Source: a virus. From it: DNA of 21,862 nucleotides. The notes under the pieces are model-generated. The model saw only the letters and a list, made by a program, of their open reading frames with translations. It had not been told where the DNA came from and did no database searches. Position 1 is the first letter of the stretch, and every line of letters begins with the position of its first letter. Below are positions 5,462 to 21,862 of this stretch, piece by piece. Position numbers and translations under genes: made by a program. The stretch is taken from positions 1-21,862 of IMG/VR virus record IMGVR_UViG_3300017771_000137; one strand, 5' to 3'.

Positions 5462-5629
5462 ATGGGAATGAGATTAGGAAAGATAGTATATTCTCCACCC
5501 GAAAAATCATACACGAAGGTAAACATTGAAGAGACACCTCATGGCTACAAGATATATCGGCCCGGAGATACGAGGCACTTTACAGTAATTCCGCTTTCCG
5601 CAGTCAAACAAATAATTTACGATAGGTGA
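5462..5629 (+). CDS. Small protein (55 aa), unknown function
   Basis: This frame encodes 55 residues beginning MGMRLGKIVYSPPEKSY and ending AVKQIIYDR. The composition looks like a small folded alpha/beta protein, with strands around KIVYSPP, GYKIYRP and HFTVIPL and a C-terminal helix. The start is supported by GTGAT at 5454-5458, 3 nt before the ATG, the same ribosome-binding pattern as neighbouring genes. The stop codon TGA lies within the GGTGAG element that would serve the next gene. It is too short for most gene finders. No family is recognised; tight packing and a good ribosome-binding site argue that it is translated. Confidence 0.6.
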   Translation: MGMRLGKIVYSPPEKSYTKVNIEETPHGYKIYRPGDTRHFTVIPLSAVKQIIYDR

Positions 5630-5634
5630 GAAAA

Positions 5635-5997
5635 ATGAGTGAAAATAATACAACAGTAGCAGATTGTGTAGCAGATTGTGTAGAGGCTTCTTCCGGCCTA
5701 CTAGCAGACATTGAAATGGTGTTAGTAGCAGGCGGTGCGCTTCTCGCTCTTGCGGCATGGGGATACCAGAAATACAAATCAATGATGGCAGATGGGAAGA
5801 TTACTCTTGATGAGTTGCTTGACGCAGTTGATGAAGTAGAAGATAAGATAGAGGAGGCCGAAGAACACTTAGAGGTTCTTGAGAAGGCTTACGATAAGTA
5901 CAATGTAGCCGAGTTGAAGGCTATGCTCAAGGAGAAGGGACTCCCAGTTGGTGGCAAGAAAGCCGACCTAGTTGCTCGCCTTGAGGAAGCCCAATGA
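5635..5997 (+). CDS. Membrane protein with coiled coil and C-terminal SAP motif
   Basis: The 120-residue protein has three parts. Residues about 1-25 contain a VADC-VADC duplication with two cysteines. Residues about 27-44 form one hydrophobic segment, IEMVLVAGGALLALAAWGY, long enough to span a membrane. Residues about 55-88 form a very acidic helix or coiled coil. Residues about 89-120 carry a SAP-type helix-turn-helix pattern: YNVAELKAMLKEKGLPVGG followed by KKADLVARL. SAP motifs usually bind DNA, so joining one to a membrane anchor is unusual. The ATG at 5635 is chosen over an in-frame GTG at 5626 because GGTGAG just upstream is a proper ribosome-binding site. It overlaps the next membrane-protein gene as ATGA, indicating coupled translation. 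Holin-like, membrane-DNA tethering and virion-internal roles are all open. Confidence 0.65.
   Translation: MSENNTTVADCVADCVEASSGLLADIEMVLVAGGALLALAAWGYQKYKSMMADGKITLDELLDAVDEVEDKIEEAEEHLEVLEKAYDKYNVAELKAMLKEKGLPVGGKKADLVARLEEAQ
5656..5679 (+). repeat. 12-bp tandem duplication inside the SAP/membrane gene
   Basis: GTAGCAGATTGT occurs twice back to back (5656-5667 and 5668-5679), followed by a further GTAG. It encodes VADC-VADC, so each unit brings one cysteine to the segment just before the membrane helix. The copies are identical at the DNA level, which suggests a recent slippage duplication. Confidence 0.85.
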
Positions 5998-8543: not shown

Positions 8544-8568
8544 ATCACGCATGGGCTACGTCGGAGTA

Positions 8569-8574
8569 AGAGGT
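8569..8574 (+). promoter_or_regulatory. Ribosome-binding site AGAGGT deciding the tube start at 8581
   Basis: AGAGGT is 6 nt before the ATG at 8581. The in-frame ATG at 8551 has no such element and would lie upstream of the predicted transcript start, so 8581 is the better start. Confidence 0.6.
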
Positions 8575-8580
8575 TTTAAT

Positions 8581-10242
8581 ATGGCAGGCGCAGAATGGTT
8601 AAATAGATATGTTTCTATAGAAAAAGAGGCAACATACGGTACAGAACCGTCAGGAACTCAAATATTTGGAGAAGTTGACGACGAATCTTTTAAGGCAAAT
8701 TTCGACCTTCTTGTAAGGTCAGACATGGCACGACAGGTTGCTTCAAAGGCAGTCACCAACACCCGATACACCGAGGGTTCAATGAATTTTGCAGTTCAGC
8801 CTGACGACTTCATGGGCAACATTATCGCTTCTTTCTTTACCAAGAGAGTTCATTCTTCCTTTTATGATGCTATTACTTTTGCAGGTAGGGGATACGGATA
8901 CATTGCTGGAACAGGCGCAATCACCGACGACGGCGGAAATGACGGAGTAGACAAGATTGGCTACTGGCAGGTTCGCAATGGTGCTGAGTCAGAATTAAGT
9001 GGTGATAATGACCTTAGTGGTACAAACGGTTCAGAAACAATAGTCCTTACAGACAACGCAGTTACAGCAGAAATTTGGGGAAAACACGCCGGAGTCACGG
9101 TGACTACCGATAACCCCGGATACGGTATTCTTGGCGCCCCCGATTCGGGTAGCACTACTGCCGGTACTTACTTTAAGTACACAGGAGTAAACGCAGGGGC
9201 GCATTCACTCACAGGCGTCACTACTTACAAGCATGACAGTACCTTTACTACTCCCGCTGCTATGGGAACTGTTGTTGATAACACGGTATGTGTGCAGTAC
9301 GAAAACTACGTTAACGGTGTAGAGCCGGGTCGAGTTTACGGATACATTACTATCCCCGGTAGTGGTAAGAGCCAAGTTTCGCTAAACGTAGCAAACGACT
9401 TCTACGGTCTTGCCGCTCTACTAAACGCAAGCCCCAAAGTCGGTGGTGCGGTAATTACTACCCCAGTAGCAACTATCGGTGGTACAAGAAAGCACATTTT
9501 CGAAGAGCCTACTCTAGCAAGCGAGTCTTACCCTTCCTACACAGTTAGGATTGGTAGGGAGTCTAAGGAACACACCTTTACTGGCATGACCGCTACAAGA
9601 CTTTCTCTTTCTGCTAACCTAAACGAGTATGTGATGGCATCTGTGGACTTCCTAGGACAGGCAGAAGCAGCACCAACAGATATTCAGACTTCGTTCTCAT
9701 ACTCTGGTAACGATGTTGACGCACTTCACTTTGCAGACGCACAGTTATTTATTGATGGTTCTGCCAGCAAGTCTACTAAGATTCAGTCGGTCAGTCTTGA
9801 GATTAACATTAACCGTGACCTTGAGTCTGCCTACGCAGTAGGGTCTAACACCATTACCCGTATGCCACCTTCAAGGACTAGGGAAATTACTGGGACAATG
9901 GAGTTTAACGAGATTCTATACGCAGATGACACAACTGCTGCCGGTGAGCCTTCTTACCAAGATTTGGCTACGGCAACTTCAGTTCACAAGATACACCGAG
10001 GACAAGGTACACCTGCTCTTAAGTTGAAATTTACTGGTGCGGGTACTTTAGCCGCTACTGAGTTTGTAGAGATTGACCTTTACAACATTAGATTCGAGGC
10101 ACCTACGGCCTCGGTAAGCGGTCGTGACCCTGCTCGAATGTCTGTCGGCTTCCAAGCCTTCTATGACTCAAAGGCTACGGGTGCTGCTAAGGCAATCACC
10201 GTTAAAATGACCGGGGCAAATCTACAGGCCAGCGCATATTAA
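8581..10242 (+). CDS. Major tail tube protein
   Basis: The 553-residue product has the hallmarks of phage tail tube proteins. The N-terminus is RYVSIEKEATYGTEP, followed by FGEVDDESFKANFDLL and QPDDFMGNII, as in tube proteins that start with a pre-strand and receptor loop. The C-terminal half has the tube beta-sandwich pattern: YTVRIGRESKEHTFTG (about residue 320), a strand with VMASVDFLGQ, TKIQSVSLEININRDL (about 400), then PPSRTREITGTMEFNE (about 430). About residues 100-260 form a large extra beta region with YFKYTGVNAGAHSLTGV, likely displayed on the outside of the tail. Many tube proteins have 150-350 residues, so this is large. The start at 8581 is set by the TATA box and AGAGGT. It is followed by small genes, chaperones and the tape measure, the standard siphovirus order. 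Confidence 0.8.
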   Translation: MAGAEWLNRYVSIEKEATYGTEPSGTQIFGEVDDESFKANFDLLVRSDMARQVASKAVTNTRYTEGSMNFAVQPDDFMGNIIASFFTKRVHSSFYDAITFAGRGYGYIAGTGAITDDGGNDGVDKIGYWQVRNGAESELSGDNDLSGTNGSETIVLTDNAVTAEIWGKHAGVTVTTDNPGYGILGAPDSGSTTAGTYFKYTGVNAGAHSLTGVTTYKHDSTFTTPAAMGTVVDNTVCVQYENYVNGVEPGRVYGYITIPGSGKSQVSLNVANDFYGLAALLNASPKVGGAVITTPVATIGGTRKHIFEEPTLASESYPSYTVRIGRESKEHTFTGMTATRLSLSANLNEYVMASVDFLGQAEAAPTDIQTSFSYSGNDVDALHFADAQLFIDGSASKSTKIQSVSLEININRDLESAYAVGSNTITRMPPSRTREITGTMEFNEILYADDTTAAGEPSYQDLATATSVHKIHRGQGTPALKLKFTGAGTLAATEFVEIDLYNIRFEAPTASVSGRDPARMSVGFQAFYDSKATGAAKAITVKMTGANLQASAY

Positions 10243-10665: not shown

Positions 10666-10827
10666 ATGGCAAGGGCTGGCGCATCCAAAACCTTTATAAA
10701 CTCACTAGGTACATGGGAACTCAAGGACGACGGAACAGTTCGTCTATTAAGAGCAGCACAGCAGCCTACACAGGTTAAAGAGAGAAGGAAGTGGAGAAAA
10801 AATGCCGGTAAAGAAAAAAGAATTTGA
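10666..10827 (+). CDS. Small basic protein (53 aa), unknown function
   Basis: The frame starts at an ATG 14 nt after the previous stop and encodes 53 residues: MARAGASKTFINSLG, TWELKDDGTVRLLRAAQQ and a basic end (KERRKWRKNAGKEKRI). It overlaps the chaperone gene by 26 nt in another frame. A TAGGT element about 10 nt before the ATG is a weak ribosome-binding site. Without it, 150 nt in a very dense gene string would be empty, which favours a real gene. No family is recognised. The same bases also hold a TATA-like sequence (10693-10700). Confidence 0.5.
   Translation: MARAGASKTFINSLGTWELKDDGTVRLLRAAQQPTQVKERRKWRKNAGKEKRI
10693..10700 (+). promoter_or_regulatory. Possible archaeal TATA box before the tail chaperone genes
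   Basis: TTTATAAA matches the archaeal TATA consensus but lies inside the 53-aa gene. A transcript from here would start near 10720-10727, about 75-80 nt before the chaperone ATG at 10802. It may be chance, since it also encodes Phe-Ile-Asn in frame. Confidence 0.3.
10791..10796 (+). promoter_or_regulatory. Ribosome-binding site GTGGAG for the chaperone gene
   Basis: GTGGAG lies 5 nt before the ATG at 10802, within the upstream 53-aa gene, and supports initiation at 10802. Confidence 0.55.
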
Positions 10828-11152
10828 ATTAGATGATGGAAGCAAGATTTGGGTGCGACAAGCATCTGGTATCGAGAAGTTGAAGATTAGCAACGCGCAA
10901 GCCAAGGTTTTTAGAAGGTTTGCCGAGGCTGGCGACCCTACAGAATGGGACGAAGATACAAACCTAGCCTTTTCAGACGCGCTTGATGAGGCCGGTGCTG
11001 GTATGCAATCACAAATTGATAATTGGTTGGTTCCTTGTGTTCTTGATGAAACTTTTGATGTAAATCTATTTACGGTTGAGGAATTACTACCTATCCTATC
11101 ATTCGTCCGTGGTGACGATGAGGAAGGTGCAGTTAATTTTTTGAGTTCGTGA
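10802..11152 (+). CDS. Tail assembly chaperone, short form (gpG-like)
   Basis: The 116-residue product sits between the tube and tape measure genes, where siphoviruses keep the chaperone that holds the tape measure before tube assembly. The N-terminus LDDGSKIWVRQASGIEKLKI gives a short beta start typical of such proteins. The rest is helical and acidic, ending FTVEELLPILSFVRGDDEEG. In many phages this gene is read in two ways: most ribosomes stop, while a few shift back one base and make a longer fusion. The end of this gene carries a strong signal for that (11137-11167). The ordinary stop is the TGA at 11150-11152. The start has GTGGAG 5 nt upstream. Confidence 0.75.
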   Translation: MPVKKKEFELDDGSKIWVRQASGIEKLKISNAQAKVFRRFAEAGDPTEWDEDTNLAFSDALDEAGAGMQSQIDNWLVPCVLDETFDVNLFTVEELLPILSFVRGDDEEGAVNFLSS

Positions 11153-11167
11153 GGGTTGCACCCTCAC
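11137..11167 (+). promoter_or_regulatory. Programmed -1 ribosomal frameshift signal
   Basis: In the chaperone frame the bases read T TTT TTG (11137-11143), a canonical X-XXY-YYZ slippery heptamer. After a 5-nt spacer (11144-11148) comes a perfect 8-bp hairpin: GTGAGGGT (11149-11156), loop TGC, ACCCTCAC (11160-11167). Shifting back one base leads from the gpG-like frame into the frame that stays open to 11433, skipping the TGA at 11150. The fusion would have 210 residues (114 before and 96 after the shift). The hairpin contains the normal stop codon. All three elements and their spacing are visible directly; use in the cell is inferred from the conserved phage mechanism. Confidence 0.85.
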
Positions 11168-11433
11168 TTTGCATGGCCTTCAAAGGTATCTTACCTTCTG
11201 ACCTTTGGTTGAAGTATAACCAAGAGGGAGGAAAATGGTTGATGGAATTAGATATGCACGTTGCTATAGAAATGAATGATAAGATAGCAGAAGCACATTC
11301 CAAGGCAAGTAAGAAAAGCAATAGCCCAGCGGGTCTACCCCGACTAACTGGTGACGATGCTAAAGATGTAGTAGCGAGGCGTAATGCAAAACGTAAAGCG
11401 CGAAAACAACAACAAGATTTATCAGACAGTTAG
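11149..11433 (+). CDS. Tail assembly chaperone, frameshift extension (gpT-like)
   Basis: This frame, -1 relative to the gpG-like gene, encodes the C-terminal extension of the chaperone fusion. Its first in-frame start is a GTG at 11149, inside the frameshift hairpin and without a ribosome-binding site, so separate translation is unlikely. The frame is entered by the shift at 11143. The sequence includes ILPSDLWLKYNQEGG, a helix with MELDMHVAIEMNDKIAEAH, and a basic end with ARRNAKRKARKQQQ. Short aromatic and acidic helices after a LPS.LW motif are common in T-like extensions, which contact the tape measure protein. The fused protein would be 210 residues. It ends 52 nt before the tape measure frame. 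Confidence 0.75.
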   Translation: MRVAPSLCMAFKGILPSDLWLKYNQEGGKWLMELDMHVAIEMNDKIAEAHSKASKKSNSPAGLPRLTGDDAKDVVARRNAKRKARKQQQDLSDS

Positions 11434-11485: not shown

Positions 11486-14400
11486 TTGATAGTTGAAGCA
11501 GGATTTATCGGTCTAAACGGTCCTTGGGGCTTTCTCGCACTAATGGCTATGGCAGTCGCCATGCTAGTCAACAGGGCTGGCGCGTCGATGGTCTTCTTCG
11601 ATGTGGTCGGTCGTTTCCAAGCCCAACGTTTGATTAAAGATGCAGATACTTCTATGACAGTCTTTAACTCTATCATGCTGGATACCTTCGCTAATATGCA
11701 AGATTCTATTAACGTCTTGGGTACTAGTGTAGAATCACTAGCCACAAGCGTACTGCCCTTTGCAGAAGCGATGCAAGATGCAGAAATAGAATTGCGTAAA
11801 TTCTTAGATGCGAGCGAGGATATAGACCAAGTAGCAGATGAGGTTAGACAACTAGGTGTTGACTTTGGTTATGCGGGTGATGAAGCACTAGCAGCAGCAG
11901 CAAAGATGGCGCAGTTGGCTTCAGTCTTGGGTGCGGGACAAACAGGGACAGGAACGCAGTTGGGTATAGAGTTCGGTTTGATAAGCGGCATGGAAACAGA
12001 AGCAGCAATGCAGCGCTTGATTAACTTGAATCAGCAACTTTTCTTTATGACAGAAGGAACAGAAGACTTAACTACTGCTGAAGAAAAGGGATTGAAGATT
12101 AGGAAAAATACCCTAGCAGTCATGGACCAACTCAACACCATTGAGAATAGGTCGGCTTCGACCATGCAACAGGTCACATTCGTTATGAATCAATTCGCAT
12201 CGCAGGCTCATCTGACTGGTGAGAGTATAGCGATGATGGCAGCGCAGTCCGCCGTTTTGATTGAAACTGGTGAAGAACAGGGTAAGGCTGGTCGTGCGCT
12301 TAGAATGATTTACGCACGATTGGGTGCAGATACCAACGGGGCTAGAAGAGAATTAGAGAATATGAATATCGCCGTTGTTGATGCTAATGACAATATGAGG
12401 CCCCTCTCTAGAATCTTAGGGGATTTGTCGCAAACGTGGGGGGACTTAGAGGCTGCCGAAAGAATGGCTATAGCACAGGGTGTAGCCGGAAACAGACACT
12501 ATACTAGATTTATCAAGTTGATGGATAACTATGAGAGGGCTGCTCAATTAGCCTTTGAGGGGCAGATGGCTCTCTTTCCCGCCTTGGAAGAGGTCAACAA
12601 CAGACTCGATACCTCAATTACTAAGTATCGCCAAGCAGAAGCCGAACTAAGCAACTATAGAGCGGAACTAGGAGAGGCCCTACTACCTGCTTTGACTGAT
12701 GCAGCAGAAAGCCAAGCGGCTTTTACAGGACATATACTCACTCTGGTTGAAATCTTCCCTAACCTTGTAGGCGGGGTTGTAACCCTAGGTATGAATATGA
12801 AGAGCCTAGTCGTCCCTATGCTAGGGGTTGTGACTAACATTGCGGCTATGACCGTGGCTATGCAAGCACAACGCGCAGTATCAAGGGCTATGGCCGGCGA
12901 GCAACTGATGTTAGAGCAAGCATTTAGTACGGCTGGTACCTCATATCAAAGCGCAAGCGCGGCTTTAGCAGAATTAGCCATACTCAAAAAAGAAATGATA
13001 GGTCTTAATCAGATGGAAATGAAAGACTTGAAGATTTTAAGTGAGGACGAAAGGGAAATACAAACAGATAGATTAAGGTTTATGCAACAAGAGGCCGCAT
13101 TGACTGAAGATGCAATAAATGAAAAGCAAAAAGATATTAACGCGCATCGAATTCTAATACAAGAGAAGAAAGAATCGATTGCACTAGCAGAGGCAGAAGG
13201 TGCAGAAGTAATTGATTTGCAAGGAGATATGAAAGGGCTTAATGCTGAGTATGAAAAACTACAAACTTCTATGATGAAACTAAATGCAGAAAGAAGATTT
13301 GAATTGGGTATTATCGAAGAGGCCTCTGGTCAGTTAGCAGAAGATAGACTCGCAACTCTACACGAAGAAAGAAAGGAAACAGACGCGGCAAATGAGGCTA
13401 TGGCCGCAAGAGCAAAGGCTATGTATGCGGTGGGAGGTGCCTCTATTGCACTAGGTGGAGCGATGATGACTCTTACCGAGAACCAGAGAATCAATACTGC
13501 TGGTATGACTTTGATGACTGCTGGGGCCGCAGTCTTAGCAGCACAACAAATTGCTCTAGCGGGTTCTACTATGATAAAAGTAGTTGCTGACCAATTAGAC
13601 ATAGACACTAAGAAGAAGAAACTCGGCGTTATTGCCGCAGAAATAAGTGCTTTGATAGCAGAAAAGATTGCTACTACTGGTTCTGCCATAGCAACTAGTT
13701 TTAATGTAATGACTACTAACGCAGATACAGGCGCTAGAACTATAAATACCGCTGCGATATGGGCGCAGATTGTTGCGTTAAGAGCATATGCGGTGGCTAA
13801 CAAGGCCGCTCTTGGTGTAGTAGGATTAGCGGTTACTGGTTTAATCGTACTCTTTACTGCTCTATGGTCTGCTGAAAAGAAAAGAAACGCAGAAGCAAAG
13901 GCATTACAGGACCAAACTACTCAATATATTCAGACTGACGCGGCGTTATTTATTCAGACTCTACATGACCAAGAACTTGCTTTAGATGACATTATTTCAA
14001 AATACAGGACAGCCAAGTCCGAAGTTGAACTTTATGCTGAGGCTAGTACGGAAGCGGGTAAGAAACTTAGAGATGATGCCGGTAAGGACATGGCTACTTA
14101 TGGGGACGTAGCAGAAGTTAAACTAGCAGGCATACTTGAGCAAGGAGAAATAACAAAGGAAGAAGTTGCAAAAGTAGTAGATGCAATGGACGAATTAGAA
14201 ACCGGCGCTGGTGCAAGAAGGCGCGGTATTTTCTTTGATGAGTTTAATATTCTTACGGGCGAAAACATGACTCAAAAGGCAATAGATAACGCTACGAGAA
14301 TAATAGCCGAATATGAAGATTTAGTGACATATATAGAAATAAGTGGCAAAGAAGGCGAAGACGCTATTTACAATTCTATACAATCAAATGCCTCAAGCCT

Positions 14401-14722
14401 TAGTGCGTTTATGGCGGACTCTAACGAATATGTTGACGGTATAGCGGTGGCTATGGAGTCTGCAACTCAATCGGTATTGGAGTTTAACAACGCTAGGGAA
14501 GAGTTGTTCTACGGTATGGCGGCTTCTAATATCACAGGGGATTTGGTAAGGCAGGTAGTTAATAGAGGAGTGGAAAACCTTTTAGTAAACACCGAGGTCA
14601 TTATGACCAATAACTTTAACGGTATGACGACAGCCCAAGCCGCACAGGAGATACTAGACCATGTGGAGAGAGGAGCAAGAATGAGAGGAGTAGATTTGAC
14701 GACAACCAGTCAAAGCATATAG
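11486..14722 (+). CDS. Tail tape measure protein
   Basis: The 1078-residue protein sets tail length and is carried inside the tube. Residues about 75-420 match the tape-measure core of TP901-type phages: helical Ala/Met-rich sequence with VADEVRQLGVDFGYAGDEA, MAAQSAVLIETGEEQGKAGR, ALRMIYARLG and AAERMAIAQGVAGNRHYTR. Residues about 515-610 are a charged coiled coil. Hydrophobic stretches follow at about 425-460, 645-700 and 770-795 (LGVVGLAVTGLIVLFTALW), as expected of a protein that enters or spans the membrane during DNA delivery. With about 1.5 angstrom per residue, the tail would be roughly 160 nm (inference). The start is uncertain: TTG 11486 is the first possible start in this frame; the first ATG, 11543, has no ribosome-binding site and would remove part of the N-terminal hydrophobic segment. 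The gene ends TAG, 13 nt before the hub gene. Confidence 0.85.
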   Translation: MIVEAGFIGLNGPWGFLALMAMAVAMLVNRAGASMVFFDVVGRFQAQRLIKDADTSMTVFNSIMLDTFANMQDSINVLGTSVESLATSVLPFAEAMQDAEIELRKFLDASEDIDQVADEVRQLGVDFGYAGDEALAAAAKMAQLASVLGAGQTGTGTQLGIEFGLISGMETEAAMQRLINLNQQLFFMTEGTEDLTTAEEKGLKIRKNTLAVMDQLNTIENRSASTMQQVTFVMNQFASQAHLTGESIAMMAAQSAVLIETGEEQGKAGRALRMIYARLGADTNGARRELENMNIAVVDANDNMRPLSRILGDLSQTWGDLEAAERMAIAQGVAGNRHYTRFIKLMDNYERAAQLAFEGQMALFPALEEVNNRLDTSITKYRQAEAELSNYRAELGEALLPALTDAAESQAAFTGHILTLVEIFPNLVGGVVTLGMNMKSLVVPMLGVVTNIAAMTVAMQAQRAVSRAMAGEQLMLEQAFSTAGTSYQSASAALAELAILKKEMIGLNQMEMKDLKILSEDEREIQTDRLRFMQQEAALTEDAINEKQKDINAHRILIQEKKESIALAEAEGAEVIDLQGDMKGLNAEYEKLQTSMMKLNAERRFELGIIEEASGQLAEDRLATLHEERKETDAANEAMAARAKAMYAVGGASIALGGAMMTLTENQRINTAGMTLMTAGAAVLAAQQIALAGSTMIKVVADQLDIDTKKKKLGVIAAEISALIAEKIATTGSAIATSFNVMTTNADTGARTINTAAIWAQIVALRAYAVANKAALGVVGLAVTGLIVLFTALWSAEKKRNAEAKALQDQTTQYIQTDAALFIQTLHDQELALDDIISKYRTAKSEVELYAEASTEAGKKLRDDAGKDMATYGDVAEVKLAGILEQGEITKEEVAKVVDAMDELETGAGARRRGIFFDEFNILTGENMTQKAIDNATRIIAEYEDLVTYIEISGKEGEDAIYNSIQSNASSLSAFMADSNEYVDGIAVAMESATQSVLEFNNAREELFYGMAASNITGDLVRQVVNRGVENLLVNTEVIMTNNFNGMTTAQAAQEILDHVERGARMRGVDLTTTSQSI

Positions 14723-14735
14723 AGAGAGATTAACA

Positions 14736-17700
14736 ATGGTACGAACAGTCACGGATAATTACTCGTTTTGGCTCACGGGCTACTACGATGATTTTACCAA
14801 TGCTAGGGCAATCGCAGATGATGCTAATACCCCCAGTACGACGGTTGCTTATTCTTCTATTAAGAGTCATCATGGTAATCCCCTCAATGGAGAAGCGCTT
14901 CTAAATCCTCGCTATAGATGGTCGGTCATAGATAGGGAAAACTACTCTACTACTCTTGATGCTCTTAGCGGGGTGACTATGGGTGAGTTCTCAAAATTAA
15001 AAAACGCTGGAATGTTCGAGTGGCTCTCTCACGATACTATTAGAAATGGCGACGATAACTGGGTTGGTAGGGCGCAGTTGCAGTATCCCAATGGTCTTGC
15101 ACCAAACCGATTTAAGTTTGGTGATGGGACTAGTAATAGCAGTTATAAGGATACTGGCATTTCTACTGGAAGAGGGTATCAGTTAATAGCGAATGGTTAT
15201 GATACCACAGGAACATATGTGCTTAACGCAGGGGATGAGGATGCGTCATTTAGAAGAAGCGAGATGGAACCCTTTCACACAAAGACAGATGGCTCTACAG
15301 ACAACATTACCAGCACCGAGTATGTTAATAAATTAGCAGGTAAATTTAATAGTTGGTACACCAGTTCTGAACCCGCTAGAAGAATACAAAACGCACATCT
15401 CACAGGTGTTTGGACTGGTGAGTGTCTGAGTTATGCTACAGGCAACGCAACCAATGTCACACCGGAGAATCTATTTCATACGATAAAATCACCGGGAGGC
15501 AAACCCTTCTTAGTGATAAAGAACATTGCAGAAGCCAATGCTAGTGAACCCTCTCTAACATATGATGGGGCATTGAATGCGAGATTGGATAATGATGTAT
15601 TCCATGCTAGGATTGCGGCTCGCTCTCACCACGGAGATACCGCGCAAAGCAATACTATTCGTGGCTCTTCCTTCGCTAACGGGGAATATCCTATGGAGGT
15701 GGATTTCCAAGTAGGGTTTCCTACTACTAGCGCGGGAGTGACAGATACTACTGGTCTTGCTGGTACCCCCGCTATACAATTTAAGTTGCTTTTAGGAACT
15801 ACAAGTGGAGTTCTTTCTAGTACAAACTATGGGCATTACCCATCTTATGATTGTCTTGGTGCAAGTTATATCGGCGCATCAGAACAGACCTATAGCAATG
15901 ACGATGCGTGGATTGATGTTGATATTAGAATTGACTTCACCAATCAGAAATTCTATCCTTATGTTGATGGAAGTCGGGTCGGTTTGACTCAGGGTTATTC
16001 TCTAAATGGAACAAGTTTTGGGGGTAATGTAAGTGCCAATGAAATATACGGGTATGAGATATACCACAAAGAGCATGATAGCGGCTCTACTAGTACTGCT
16101 CTTGGCGTAAACTATCTTATGCTCGATAGAGTAGGAATAGTTAGATACCTAACTTCTCCTCTTACAAATAAAAATAGACACGCCGAAACACCAATCTCTA
16201 AATTTAGACTGAGTATGGCTAACGATGCTTTTTCTATAGCCAGCATAGAAATACAAGATGACAAAGATGACGGTGTAGCGGGTACGTCATCTAGTAATTA
16301 TACTTATAATCTAAAAACACTATTTTCTAATATGGACCCTGTTGAATGTGGTCTTTTAGTCTTTGCTTCGGATGAACAACAAAGAATAGATAGACCAAAT
16401 TGGAGAGGTATAATAGATAAAATGTCTTTGCAACAAGACAAGTCTTCTAGAGTAATACGACTACAAGCCAGTCATCGTGCTTCGGTTTTAGGAAAGCAAA
16501 TTCCTATGTGGGATGTAGGGCAACTACAAGAAGGAAATGATGAAGACGGTACAGTTCAGTATTGGAGAGCAGATAACGAGGGATTCAAAAGCATTATGGA
16601 AATGGGTACTAGACCACTAAAGATGCTAAATAATAAACTTGGTTTCGGACAGGCAAACGGCTTTCAAGAAAATAAAAACCAAAGGCTTCAACTTGGTTCT
16701 GGAATGCCAATACAGATGTATAACAACCACGACCCCGACCACGGACCAAATAGCGTAGAAGAGCAGTATAGAGGTAATTCTGTTGGTTCTATCATGCAGA
16801 CTATTCTGGATTCTAATAACAACGCAGTAGTAACTGGGGGAACTTCTGACGGTAGCGCGACCCTAAAAACCACATTGGGTCTTATTTCTCAAAGTAGTTT
16901 AACAGAAAGTGATACTGTTAATATTGTGAATACCACAAACCACAATGCTTCTAGTAAAGATATTCTTGACATATATAACACAAGCCTTTATAGAGATGTC
17001 GCAAGTTTCATGGCAGTTGATAACCTTACTTATACCCCAGAAAGCAGTAAGATTATTTATATCGGCGCAAAGATTCCCGCTAATACGGCTTACCTAACTA
17101 GTCTATGGCATCAGTTTAATTTCGATGTTGAAACCCAATGGCAAAATTATTTGGAAAACAACCCATCAACTAATCTAACCACTAGTGATAATCTTATTGT
17201 GATGTTTGATACAGACCCCAATTTGAAAGTAGGGGATTATATGTATATTAACCATGTAAGTCTTGCCGGCACCATGACTAATACTGGGTATAACGCTGCT
17301 ACTAATTCAAGTCCATTAAGAACTACTCTACGGGGAAGGCATAGGGTTTCTTCTATCCATACGGCAAAGGACATTTACACTACTAGTCGTATAGGTACTA
17401 CTTGGATTAATACTCCCAGTATTAAGTATGTAGTACTAGAAACTAGTGCGGTCAATGCGCTTAGTTGGTATGAAGGAAAATATGGTTCAATTACAAGCGT
17501 AGGTAATACGCTTACAGGAAACAACCGCTATCCGTGGACAAGAGAAACTGGGGCTATCAATGACTCTTCTAGTGATTTGGGTAAGGCTGCGCTTCGTCCA
17601 ATGCATGCCCGATGGATAAGAGACTTGCCTCAATCTTTATGGTTTAAGTACCACTTTGGTATTATAGAGTATGACCCCCTTGGCGCAAACGCTAATACCG

Positions 17701-20700
17701 ATATTACCTATGGGTATAACCCCAATGATACTAGGGTTAGAACTAGTGCTGTAAGCGGAAACGCAGCAGCAAATATTACTAAAGGAGATACGGCAGTACA
17801 AATAGCACAGGGACTTTACGATGCTCTTGTAGCGCAACAGGCATGGTCTGGTGTAGCCGAAATAAGAGCAGAAGGGTTTTGGACTAGTGGTCCAGACGCA
17901 GGGAAAGATTCTGGAACACAGACCAACAAGAGAAGCAAGTTTATTTGGCAAGACCTTCAGAATATTGGTGGTAGTTATTATATGCTTGGTTGTAAGTATA
18001 TTGACGCCTCTTTTACTATGGGTACAGGAACTAAAACAAGACAGGGTAGTAACCAGACTTACAAAAACGTTATATTTATATTACCGTTAAAGTTTTCTGA
18101 TAATTACAATCATCTGTGGGTTCTTTGGGCCGACATGAGAATAGACGGTAAGGCTGATGCCGACGGAGGAACAAGGAAAACCAAGTTCGGTTTAATATCC
18201 CCGACGCCGGAGAACTATACAGTTAATTTGCATTATGTGGATAAAGAGGGGGCCGACGGAACCCCCGATAAATTTACCGAACTCAAGGTAAATGATGATG
18301 TGACTCTGTGGGATATTAGCGCTATAGATAACGTTACCGGGGCCGGATTCTCCAAGCCTGTGAACTATGGTAATGGTACTTCATCAACTGCCTTAGAAAG
18401 CGTAGGTCTATCTTCCAATCTCAATGATTTGAACGGACAACCTATAGTAGCGGGACAACCAACTGCAAACCTCCTTGTCACTAAAACCAGTCACGGTATT
18501 ACTTCTGATTATGTTCATCTCTTTAATACTACGAAGCATGACGGGGTTCATAAGGTATTAGCGAGTACTTCGAACAACTTAGTTTTAGATACTAAATTTT
18601 TAGGCGCTGATACTGGCAACACCATTGGGGGTACAAGGCTTTGTCCAGTCAACGAATCCGTCGAAACCAACTATCAAGATTGGGAAAACAAGGGAGGGGC
18701 TATGTGTATAGTCGATGCTTCTCCATTCTTCAACCTCAATACAGGTTCGAATCAAGGCGGAGTATATCAAGTTTCTGGTGGGACAACTGACCTTTCGGAT
18801 TATACTGTAGAAACGACGGGCTTCCCTGCTCTAATTGATAACTACTGGGCTGAAGTAATTGCATCGGATAATAACAAAGCGGCTTCTCAGGACGTTCACC
18901 CTAACGCATACAAAGTCATTAGTGATGTGACTGCTCTAAAGGCAGATTTGAATTTTGGTGATGCGGGTATAGAAGTTGATGACATTAGTATTTTTGCTGA
19001 GAGCGGTACAGGGAAGTTTGTCATGCAACAGGCAGTTAGTGGGTCAAACGAGCAAACTATCAATACTGCTTATTTCAAGTGGTCTAGCAAGAACACTACA
19101 GAAAGAAGCGGTACCGCAACAATGGATGGTGTCAGTTTGATTAATAATAATACTTGGTATGAGTTAGATTTGAACGGAACTGATTGGGCTGCTTTAGGAA
19201 TAAAGGAAGGTATGATGATTCAGAATACCACAACAGGAAATAATCATAAGATTGTTTCTGTCGGAGATGGTACAAATGCAGACATACTCAGAATAGATAG
19301 AGGGCAGTATTCCAACGGCGTATCAGCAAACTATACTTGGACTGATACTGATGATTGGAAGATACCCATACAATTGGGCGGTCTTTGGACAATGAATACC
19401 TTCTTAAGCGAAAGCGCGTTAGATAACCCAAACGAAATTCTCTCAGAAGTGAATCAAGCATATATCAATACTGGGGGTAGAGTCGGCTCTTCAACCAAAT
19501 TAGATATTAAGGTTCAACCCGATGAAACATCCGCCGATTATGATTATGAGATAGTCACAGTAAGCAGCACCGTCTATACGGCTAGTCAGAATATCACTAG
19601 AATCCTTATGCATTTAGAGGGATTAATAGAAGCACCAAATAGCGGTACTTATTACGACAGCGACAAACTGAGGATGTTGTGGAATGCTGGTCTTACCAAG
19701 AATTGGAACCCACCGACAAGGCTTACCTCTTTCTTTGATATTAACAACGTGCCTATCACTACATCAATGACTTCTGACGGTGGGACTACCAATAATGATA
19801 ACTACGGTGGCGTTGTCAAGGGAGGAGTTAAACCATTGCTTGCTACTCTAAAGGATATTCAAAAGGGTGCGGGTTTTGGAGTCACTAATAACCACCACAC
19901 CTCTTTCTCTTGGTTATCGGGTCGTGATGGTAGGATAGATTTCAGACCAAAATTCAATAGTGGTTTAGTTTTCAATAGAGATAATATGGTAATGAATAAT
20001 CTAAGCACGCAAGTATCTGGTAGTGTCACCAACGTTAGGATTTATTATAACGGTAATAAAGACTTTGTAGATTATCCGAGCGCCAGCACTACTTCTACTA
20101 CCAATTGGAAAACATTGGAATATCCAAGGATTTTCAATAAGAAAGAAGCGCAAAGATTAGCACAGAAGGAATACAATGCTAGTAGAAAAACCAACTCAAG
20201 TATTATCTTAGAGCCTAGTGCGACTTCTTATACGGAAGACGGCGCAACTAGTTTGGTTTCTTCTAAGTTTTGTGATACTGGTCGTTATGGTTATATCGCA
20301 GACCCATACATAGCCCTGCAAGGAAAGGCTGACGCTTCCGTAAAACCAACCAGTTGGACTCGTTTGGGTACGGGTGGCTCTCTCTTTACGGGTATGAGCA
20401 ATGCGTTTGACGGCAATCTAGGAACCAACGGAACTCTTCTCAACAGGTGGGGCAAGTCCGGCCCCCATCAAACAAATACCTCAGCAGGTAATGTCACATG
20501 GGCTAACAACTTCTATTGGTATGGTGCCGCGTCTGTCAGTCACGCGGTGCAGGTAGTCCATGTGCCAAATCATTGTCCTCTTGTCAGCGAGGAAACCGGA
20601 GAAGAGTTGAGAATCTTTGTGACACCACACGAAAACCAAACAACTGCGGATGTATCTGTAGACTCTACTTCAACTCTCCCTCCACCCAAATTCGATATTT

Positions 20701-21862
20701 GGGTTGTGGACTATGCGTATATCAACGATAACATCAAGACTGCGACCATTAGCGATTCGGGAGGTACTCATTCTAAGACAGGGGCCACTCGGTATAATAG
20801 AGTAGTGGTTCAAGAGAGCGGTTTCTATGAGTTAGTTTTACCGTTATCTTATTGGAACAATAGCGGGAGTGCTTTCAGCCCCACAAGAAGAATCATTGTA
20901 TCTTTCAATGCAGATTACTGTAGGGATTTGCTACGGCACAGGTGCGGCGACCCTGCCAGCGCTGACTTGTATAAGAGTGCCAACACCCTACCGGGTATCA
21001 CGGCAGGTACTTCTAATGGAAATATAACCATAGGTAATGACTATTCCATCTTCCCTCTTGGTGGGAGAATGTATGAGGAGTGGTATATGTTCCACGGTGT
21101 AGGGTCAAGAGCGATGTGGAATGCTCCGAGAATACAGATGGTTAGAGATTTCTCCTATGTGCCGGCCTCTTATGTCAAACTGACGGATGCTGGTTTGGGC
21201 TACAATGATGCAACATTTGTCATAAAAGATATAGATTGGGAATTATCGTCTGGGAGAAGTGAAACACTAAGAATAGAATTGGCTATGGATGAGTCCCTAC
21301 GAACCGGAAACCTTACATCATTCTTACCCTCTAACACTATTAATGTTCCTACTTTCCAACCTGATATTCCTTCTTTACCTCCGGCGTCAAGCACTCCGGG
21401 CGTAGAAACCACACCCACACCGATTAGTGGAACGCCACCAGCCGGTCAAGGCTTAACTGGCTGGGATAGAAGAGGAAGAGGCTGGGGTATTAATAACTCT
21501 TCTTCTGGTCTGTTTAACAGGTGGAGAAACAGAATGGGTGATATGGCAAACTCTCTTGGGAGTGGTGAAACTTCAGTCTTGGGTGGAGAGAGAGCAATCG
21601 TGACACCACAGACTAACTCAACGGCTTCGCCATCGACCAACGTAGATGTATCGGGCGGCAACGCGGTTTCTGCTGCCACCGGATTTACTTTCCCCGGAGT
21701 AGGCAACGTGGAAGAAGGAACCTCACCATACTTTTCCAGCGCCTTTAATAAATCTGTCACTACGCCCCCTAACGTCACTTCTGATACAGTAGAAGTGGTT
21801 GGGAATGTGACCCACTTAGCAACTACTGGACAAGCGGTCATTACAACAAGGATAAGTTACGA
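14736..21862 (+). CDS. Giant tail hub / tip protein (3' partial)
   Basis: From ATG 14736 the frame stays open to the end of the window: I translated all 2375 codons and met no stop. It follows the tape measure gene, where the distal tail and hub proteins are encoded. Residues about 270-475 look like a concanavalin/LamG beta-sandwich. Residues about 482-600 resemble the first part of siphovirus tail hubs (RGIIDKMSLQQDKSSRVIRL, then QASHRASVLGKQ). Residues about 1695-1830 look like a later hub domain (LLATLKDIQKGAGFG, SWLSGRDGRIDFRPKFNSG, VTNVRIYYNG). Some 1100 beta-rich residues separate these parts. Near the end, about 2195-2240, is a Pro/Thr/Ser-rich linker (PDIPSLPPASSTPG) and a less ordered glycine-rich tail. 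Typical hub proteins have 400-1200 residues. Ribosome binding is weak (GAGAGAG about 8 nt upstream). Role: plug of the tail tip, contact with host surface. Confidence 0.75.
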   Translation, partial: MVRTVTDNYSFWLTGYYDDFTNARAIADDANTPSTTVAYSSIKSHHGNPLNGEALLNPRYRWSVIDRENYSTTLDALSGVTMGEFSKLKNAGMFEWLSHDTIRNGDDNWVGRAQLQYPNGLAPNRFKFGDGTSNSSYKDTGISTGRGYQLIANGYDTTGTYVLNAGDEDASFRRSEMEPFHTKTDGSTDNITSTEYVNKLAGKFNSWYTSSEPARRIQNAHLTGVWTGECLSYATGNATNVTPENLFHTIKSPGGKPFLVIKNIAEANASEPSLTYDGALNARLDNDVFHARIAARSHHGDTAQSNTIRGSSFANGEYPMEVDFQVGFPTTSAGVTDTTGLAGTPAIQFKLLLGTTSGVLSSTNYGHYPSYDCLGASYIGASEQTYSNDDAWIDVDIRIDFTNQKFYPYVDGSRVGLTQGYSLNGTSFGGNVSANEIYGYEIYHKEHDSGSTSTALGVNYLMLDRVGIVRYLTSPLTNKNRHAETPISKFRLSMANDAFSIASIEIQDDKDDGVAGTSSSNYTYNLKTLFSNMDPVECGLLVFASDEQQRIDRPNWRGIIDKMSLQQDKSSRVIRLQASHRASVLGKQIPMWDVGQLQEGNDEDGTVQYWRADNEGFKSIMEMGTRPLKMLNNKLGFGQANGFQENKNQRLQLGSGMPIQMYNNHDPDHGPNSVEEQYRGNSVGSIMQTILDSNNNAVVTGGTSDGSATLKTTLGLISQSSLTESDTVNIVNTTNHNASSKDILDIYNTSLYRDVASFMAVDNLTYTPESSKIIYIGAKIPANTAYLTSLWHQFNFDVETQWQNYLENNPSTNLTTSDNLIVMFDTDPNLKVGDYMYINHVSLAGTMTNTGYNAATNSSPLRTTLRGRHRVSSIHTAKDIYTTSRIGTTWINTPSIKYVVLETSAVNALSWYEGKYGSITSVGNTLTGNNRYPWTRETGAINDSSSDLGKAALRPMHARWIRDLPQSLWFKYHFGIIEYDPLGANANTDITYGYNPNDTRVRTSAVSGNAAANITKGDTAVQIAQGLYDALVAQQAWSGVAEIRAEGFWTSGPDAGKDSGTQTNKRSKFIWQDLQNIGGSYYMLGCKYIDASFTMGTGTKTRQGSNQTYKNVIFILPLKFSDNYNHLWVLWADMRIDGKADADGGTRKTKFGLISPTPENYTVNLHYVDKEGADGTPDKFTELKVNDDVTLWDISAIDNVTGAGFSKPVNYGNGTSSTALESVGLSSNLNDLNGQPIVAGQPTANLLVTKTSHGITSDYVHLFNTTKHDGVHKVLASTSNNLVLDTKFLGADTGNTIGGTRLCPVNESVETNYQDWENKGGAMCIVDASPFFNLNTGSNQGGVYQVSGGTTDLSDYTVETTGFPALIDNYWAEVIASDNNKAASQDVHPNAYKVISDVTALKADLNFGDAGIEVDDISIFAESGTGKFVMQQAVSGSNEQTINTAYFKWSSKNTTERSGTATMDGVSLINNNTWYELDLNGTDWAALGIKEGMMIQNTTTGNNHKIVSVGDGTNADILRIDRGQYSNGVSANYTWTDTDDWKIPIQLGGLWTMNTFLSESALDNPNEILSEVNQAYINTGGRVGSSTKLDIKVQPDETSADYDYEIVTVSSTVYTASQNITRILMHLEGLIEAPNSGTYYDSDKLRMLWNAGLTKNWNPPTRLTSFFDINNVPITTSMTSDGGTTNNDNYGGVVKGGVKPLLATLKDIQKGAGFGVTNNHHTSFSWLSGRDGRIDFRPKFNSGLVFNRDNMVMNNLSTQVSGSVTNVRIYYNGNKDFVDYPSASTTSTTNWKTLEYPRIFNKKEAQRLAQKEYNASRKTNSSIILEPSATSYTEDGATSLVSSKFCDTGRYGYIADPYIALQGKADASVKPTSWTRLGTGGSLFTGMSNAFDGNLGTNGTLLNRWGKSGPHQTNTSAGNVTWANNFYWYGAASVSHAVQVVHVPNHCPLVSEETGEELRIFVTPHENQTTADVSVDSTSTLPPPKFDIWVVDYAYINDNIKTATISDSGGTHSKTGATRYNRVVVQESGFYELVLPLSYWNNSGSAFSPTRRIIVSFNADYCRDLLRHRCGDPASADLYKSANTLPGITAGTSNGNITIGNDYSIFPLGGRMYEEWYMFHGVGSRAMWNAPRIQMVRDFSYVPASYVKLTDAGLGYNDATFVIKDIDWELSSGRSETLRIELAMDESLRTGNLTSFLPSNTINVPTFQPDIPSLPPASSTPGVETTPTPISGTPPAGQGLTGWDRRGRGWGINNSSSGLFNRWRNRMGDMANSLGSGETSVLGGERAIVTPQTNSTASPSTNVDVSGGNAVSAATGFTFPGVGNVEEGTSPYFSSAFNKSVTTPPNVTSDTVEVVGNVTHLATTGQAVITTRISY

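Follow-up and report, generated by a model that had tools for sequence, protein, structure and literature searches.

A -1 frameshift of the G/GT type, described for phage lambda (PMC5009743), is conserved in long-tailed phages. A -1 shift in the tail assembly chaperone has also been predicted for the haloarchaeal siphoviruses HVTV-1, HCTV-1, HCTV-2, and HCTV-5, and a +1 shift for the haloarchaeal myovirus HSTV-2 (PMC5009743, PMC8211752). The only experimentally proven archaeal -1 frameshift is that of the alpha-L-fucosidase of Saccharolobus solfataricus (PMC8211752). Besides this one case, only a few viral predictions of frameshifting on archaeal ribosomes exist so far (PMC8211752, PMC5009743), which agrees with the original prediction that examples in archaeal viruses are few. 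The ICTV profile of the Aoguangviridae lists a tail assembly chaperone (PMC10768690), and a literature search, which took in few subscription papers, returned no description of frameshifting in marine viruses of the type analyzed here.

The locus under study lies on a linear fragment, a virus record of 21.9 kb that is called the window throughout. Shared with lambda gpG/gpGT are the place between the tube and tape measure genes, the -1 overlap ending a short chaperone, the slippery heptamer, and the C-terminal extension (PMC5009743). The window differs from lambda G/GT in its U_UUU_UUG site, a clade-specific 8-bp hairpin, the archaeal type of the virus, and the lack of detectable similarity to known families. 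Gene position and -1 direction are shared with HVTV-1, HCTV-1, HCTV-2, and HCTV-5, for which the host is archaeal. While the slippery sites of haloarchaeal viruses are purine-rich (PMC5009743), with GGGAAAG at the junction of the joined chaperone in the HVTV-1 record, those of the window's relatives are pyrimidine-rich, and profile comparison detected no homology between the chaperones of HVTV-1 and the window. The Aoguangviridae and the magroviruses of marine archaea are likewise marine, tailed, and PolB-bearing. Magrovirales are expected to pair PolB with a sliding clamp encoded by the virus; PCNA_N was matched in none of 16 contigs related to the window, which may be partial. The alpha-L-fucosidase shift resembles the present one in its -1 direction on an archaeal ribosome, a slippery site, and a putative stem-loop, but it resides in a cellular gene.

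A programmed -1 frameshift in a tail assembly chaperone pair of the lambda G/GT type is the best explanation of the locus, and on the sequence comparisons given below we regard it as highly probable. The window very likely holds a real and selected chaperone frameshift of this type in a probable archaeal virus. The mechanism has long been known from bacterial phages; the comparative evidence for it here, in probable archaeal viruses, is unusually rich. About 80 distinct natural shift sites, in which selection on individual silent bases can be seen, together with a lineage that apparently changed direction, provide a test set for the tolerance of archaeal codon-anticodon pairing.

Anatomy of the probable shift site and its predicted products

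The T TTT TTG heptamer on the plus strand is in phase with the 0-frame ORF, which closes with the codons GTT AAT TTT TTG AGT TCG TGA, and TTTTTTG occurs only once on this strand of the window. The phase of the heptamer, the 5-nt spacer, and the perfect 8-bp hairpin with its 3-nt loop were all found where the original prediction had placed them (Table 1). The stem pairs GTGAGGGT (11149-11156) with ACCCTCAC (11160-11167), and the folding energy of this strand is -16.2 kcal/mol (z -2.4), with 3 of 200 shuffles equally good. The -1 frame is open from exactly the heptamer onward and yields a fusion of 210 aa, confirming the length that had been forecast. Because a TAA closes this frame at 11134-11136, the shift point can lie no further upstream. 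An SD-like element upstream of the heptamer pairs with the anti-SD at about -10 kcal/mol, which is not above synonymous randomisations.

Table 1. Features of the chaperone locus and its neighbours in the window.
Feature	Position	Strand	Basis
Tail tube protein	8551..10242	+	Pfam Phage_tube_2 5.1e-20
0-frame ORF, short tail assembly chaperone (G-like), 116 aa	10802..11152	+	ORF, alignment, AlphaFold
SD-like AGGAAGGTG, end 7 nt 5' of heptamer; possible stimulator, unsupported	11121..11129	+	anti-SD pairing
TAA closing the -1 frame, just 5' of heptamer	11134..11136	+	sequence, script
-1-frame extension (T-like domain), fused to 0-frame product	11137..11433	+	open frame, alignment
Slippery heptamer T TTT TTG	11137..11143	+	sequence; clade-invariant
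Spacer AGTTC, 5 nt	11144..11148	+	sequence
Putative stimulatory hairpin, loop TGC 11157-11159	11149..11167	+	fold, pair counts, silent-change test
0-frame stop TGA, within hairpin 5' arm	11150..11152	+	sequence
Tail tape measure protein	11486..14722	+	Pfam PhageMin_Tail 1.8e-14; PHROG tape measure families

In the proposed mechanism, most ribosomes would read the 0-frame ORF to its TGA and release the 116-aa short form. A minority, held by the hairpin, would slip back by one base on U_UUU_UUG and translate the -1 frame as far as 11433; the resulting 210-aa form would end in a helical domain. Depending on the state of the A-site tRNA at the slip, the tryptic peptide spanning the junction of the fusion would be GDDEEGAVNFLEFVR or GDDEEGAVNFFEFVR. 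If the two forms behave as in lambda, the short one would coat the tape measure protein, with the rare long one recruiting subunits of the tail tube. That slippage takes place, how often it does so, and what each form does are our inferences.

The chaperone has the tail tube gene upstream and the tape measure gene directly downstream, where lambda-like phages carry their G/T pair. In 27-member alignments, the 0-frame product is 50-91% identical and the -1-frame extension 52-88%. The chaperone had no match beyond chance in Pfam, PHROG, or PDB sequences and none among INPHARED phages. The AlphaFold model of the 116-aa product reached a pLDDT of 84.5, and its first and second PDB matches were both the HK97 tail assembly chaperone 2ob9, although weakly (E 0.13, probability 0.82). 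Among viral models, the top match was A0A516M8M4 (44% identical), which carries no protein name, while many of the named matches were tail assembly chaperones. The predicted fold of the 0-frame product may resemble that of the HK97 tail chaperone.

The locus could also encode two separate proteins, with termination at the 0-frame TGA and re-initiation at GTG 11149 or ATG 11173. In favor of this reading, GTG 11149 overlaps the stop (GTGA) in the 5' arm of the hairpin, and an ATG overlaps or adjoins the stop in 21 relatives. The GTG lacks a Shine-Dalgarno match, however, with -2.2 kcal/mol compared to -7.9 to -12.3 kcal/mol for most other starts tested and an average of -3.4 kcal/mol for random 20-mers. 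That the hairpin holds both the stop and a restart codon without a ribosome-binding site was thus predicted correctly, but the GTG is not the sole candidate, as ATG 11173 is also in frame. Use of this ATG would drop the conserved residues VAPSLC. The T-like domain is predicted to be helical from the shift point onward, and the conserved residues directly after the shift sit in this predicted helix, which speaks against a separate start downstream.

Conservation and selection among relatives

Searches of IMG/VR identified relatives of the second-frame domain encoded in 136 stretches, of which 80 were kept and joined by the loci of further searches. From 163 loci, 76 distinct junctions were drawn, while L038, L060, L062, and L063 did not resolve. 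Of the 76 distinct relatives, 75 have the -1 overlap, each with its slippery site at the corresponding codon. The sites read AAT TTT TTG in 10, C CCT TTA in 14, C CCT TTG in 27, N CCT TTT in 22, and CAT TTT in 2 relatives, corresponding to 10, 41, and 24 members of the classes U_UUU_UUG, C_CCU_UUA/G, and CCU/CAU_UUU, respectively. Four more divergent loci (L311-L314) also showed C CCT TTA and a -1 frame. Conservation of these sites supports the predicted programmed -1 frameshift in a chaperone of the G/GT type.

Re-initiation fails as an explanation because 35 of the 76 relatives offer no start codon in the stretch from the shift to the conserved LCM block; in 10 more, the only one is a TTG inside that block. 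It also leaves the invariant heptamer, and a silent C before CCU described below, unexplained, and we consider it very unlikely.

A broken or mis-assembled gene, in which an indel splits one ORF and no regulated shift takes place, is a reading that one window alone could not discriminate from a programmed shift. The two overlapping frames are, however, kept in 76 distinct sequences from many metagenomes, and none of these resolved junctions has the two frames fused into one. The number of relatives excludes this reading, to which we attach hardly any probability at all.

The programmed shift is further distinguished from transcriptional slippage, in which mRNAs of altered length would arise on the T6 run and ribosomes would not shift. 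A run of six T is indeed present, but it is short for polymerase slippage, and the hairpin lies ahead of the shift site in the mRNA, as for a ribosomal signal. Transcriptional slippage fails on the absence of this run from most relatives: in 65 of 76, the clade's AATTTTTTG is replaced by CCTTTA, CCTTTG, or CCTTTT/CATTTT. It is very improbable.

All 10 distinct members of the window's clade carry the same heptamer, with no change even at the silent positions of AAT and TTT. The expectation that relatives would keep the heptamer was borne out in this clade, and more distant relatives carry different slippery sites at this codon. Synonymous change was absent from the stem codons GTG, AGG, CCC, and TCA but had occurred in 22 of 23 further testable codons (P 2.8e-4); for CCC and TCA alone, which lie outside the overlap, P was 0.01. 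The loop codon GTN varies freely in the clade. The original prediction had raised compensatory stem changes among relatives, and here it did not hold: pair counts in the clade gave 98.8% pairing, no double change, and no covariation. Since the stem is nearly invariant, its support comes from the missing synonymous change. The stem is specific to the window's clade, since none of the other slip classes showed a hairpin in this position.

In the C_CCU_UUA/G viruses, the silent base before CCU was C in 41 of 41, with no change over a tree length of 8.46, and two neighbouring silent sites changed 7 times each. In the CCU/CAU_UUU clade, the base before CCU changed 10 times over a tree length of 2.80. 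A Fisher test on the C before CCU gave P 8e-5, but all non-C cases fall in one clade, and the change counts are therefore preferred as the main evidence. We infer from these patterns that a U_UUU tetramer can suffice for slippage, without the C, where UUU is followed by C or U, and that UUA and UUG require the full heptamer. Judged by the substitution patterns, both frames, the slippery site, and, in the window's clade, the stem are kept by selection.

One clade of loci, comprising L022, L056, L086, and similar ones, has a 0-frame TAG directly after C CCT TTA/G and no hairpin near it. In these loci, the stop itself may be the stimulator.

An apparent change of direction

At locus L010 (5680-5740 of contig IMGVR_UViG_3300025110_000229, which also carries L019 and L069), the second frame is +1. 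L010 groups within the window's clade with a support of 100/95. Its junction reads GTA TCC TTT CGT TGA, with heptamer, stem, and phase lost together. A slip at UUU_C would give GAVSF-VEFLQVAPALCM, which aligns without gaps to GAVNF-FEFVRVAPSLCM. One sequencing error would not produce this combined loss, which is known from a single contig. A protein search from L010 found no second contig with this site in the junctions examined, and a 15-base pattern for the site was too unspecific as a search key. A +1 shift in the chaperone is predicted for HSTV-2 and would be needed in L010; that of L010 is nested in a -1 clade, while HSTV-2 is likened to it by direction alone.

Taken together with the site classes, L010 suggests with fair probability that a marine family of tailed archaeal viruses has kept its frameshifted tail chaperone while the sites turned over between U_UUU_UUG, C_CCU_UUR, and U_UUU-type. 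L010 would then have switched from -1 to +1 (UUU_C), losing the heptamer and the hairpin with the fusion length unchanged.

Host and neighbouring reading frames

An archaeal host is likely, as suggested by RFC-like and XPF-like proteins together with PolB in a related contig. The clamp loader of this contig (G003) has archaeal RFC small subunits as its closest matches, and an ERCC4/HHH protein matches XPF weakly. The PolB matches with the longest coverage come from tailed viruses of haloarchaea, at 22-24% identity, and PolB occurred in 15 of 16 related contigs. The prediction of a probable archaeal virus is supported indirectly through these genes. Two scans of genome contigs returned no relatives, and no tRNA was found in three long relative contigs. 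Our guess at the host is Poseidoniales or another marine group.

Three further reading frames of the window were observed. Downstream (3') of the tape measure gene, a very large ORF of at least 2375 aa (14736-21860) runs off the window. It is probably a tail tip or fibre, and its first 1000 aa had no PHROG match beyond chance. The C-terminus of a frame at 5626-5997 (LKAMLKEKGLPVGGKKADLVARLEEAQ) appears SAP-motif-like by eye. A 53-aa ORF at 10666-10827 (MARAGASKTFINSLGTWELK...) overlaps the chaperone start and is kept in close relatives. It contains a RAGAS motif that reappears close to the N-terminus of the tape measure protein (11486 onward).
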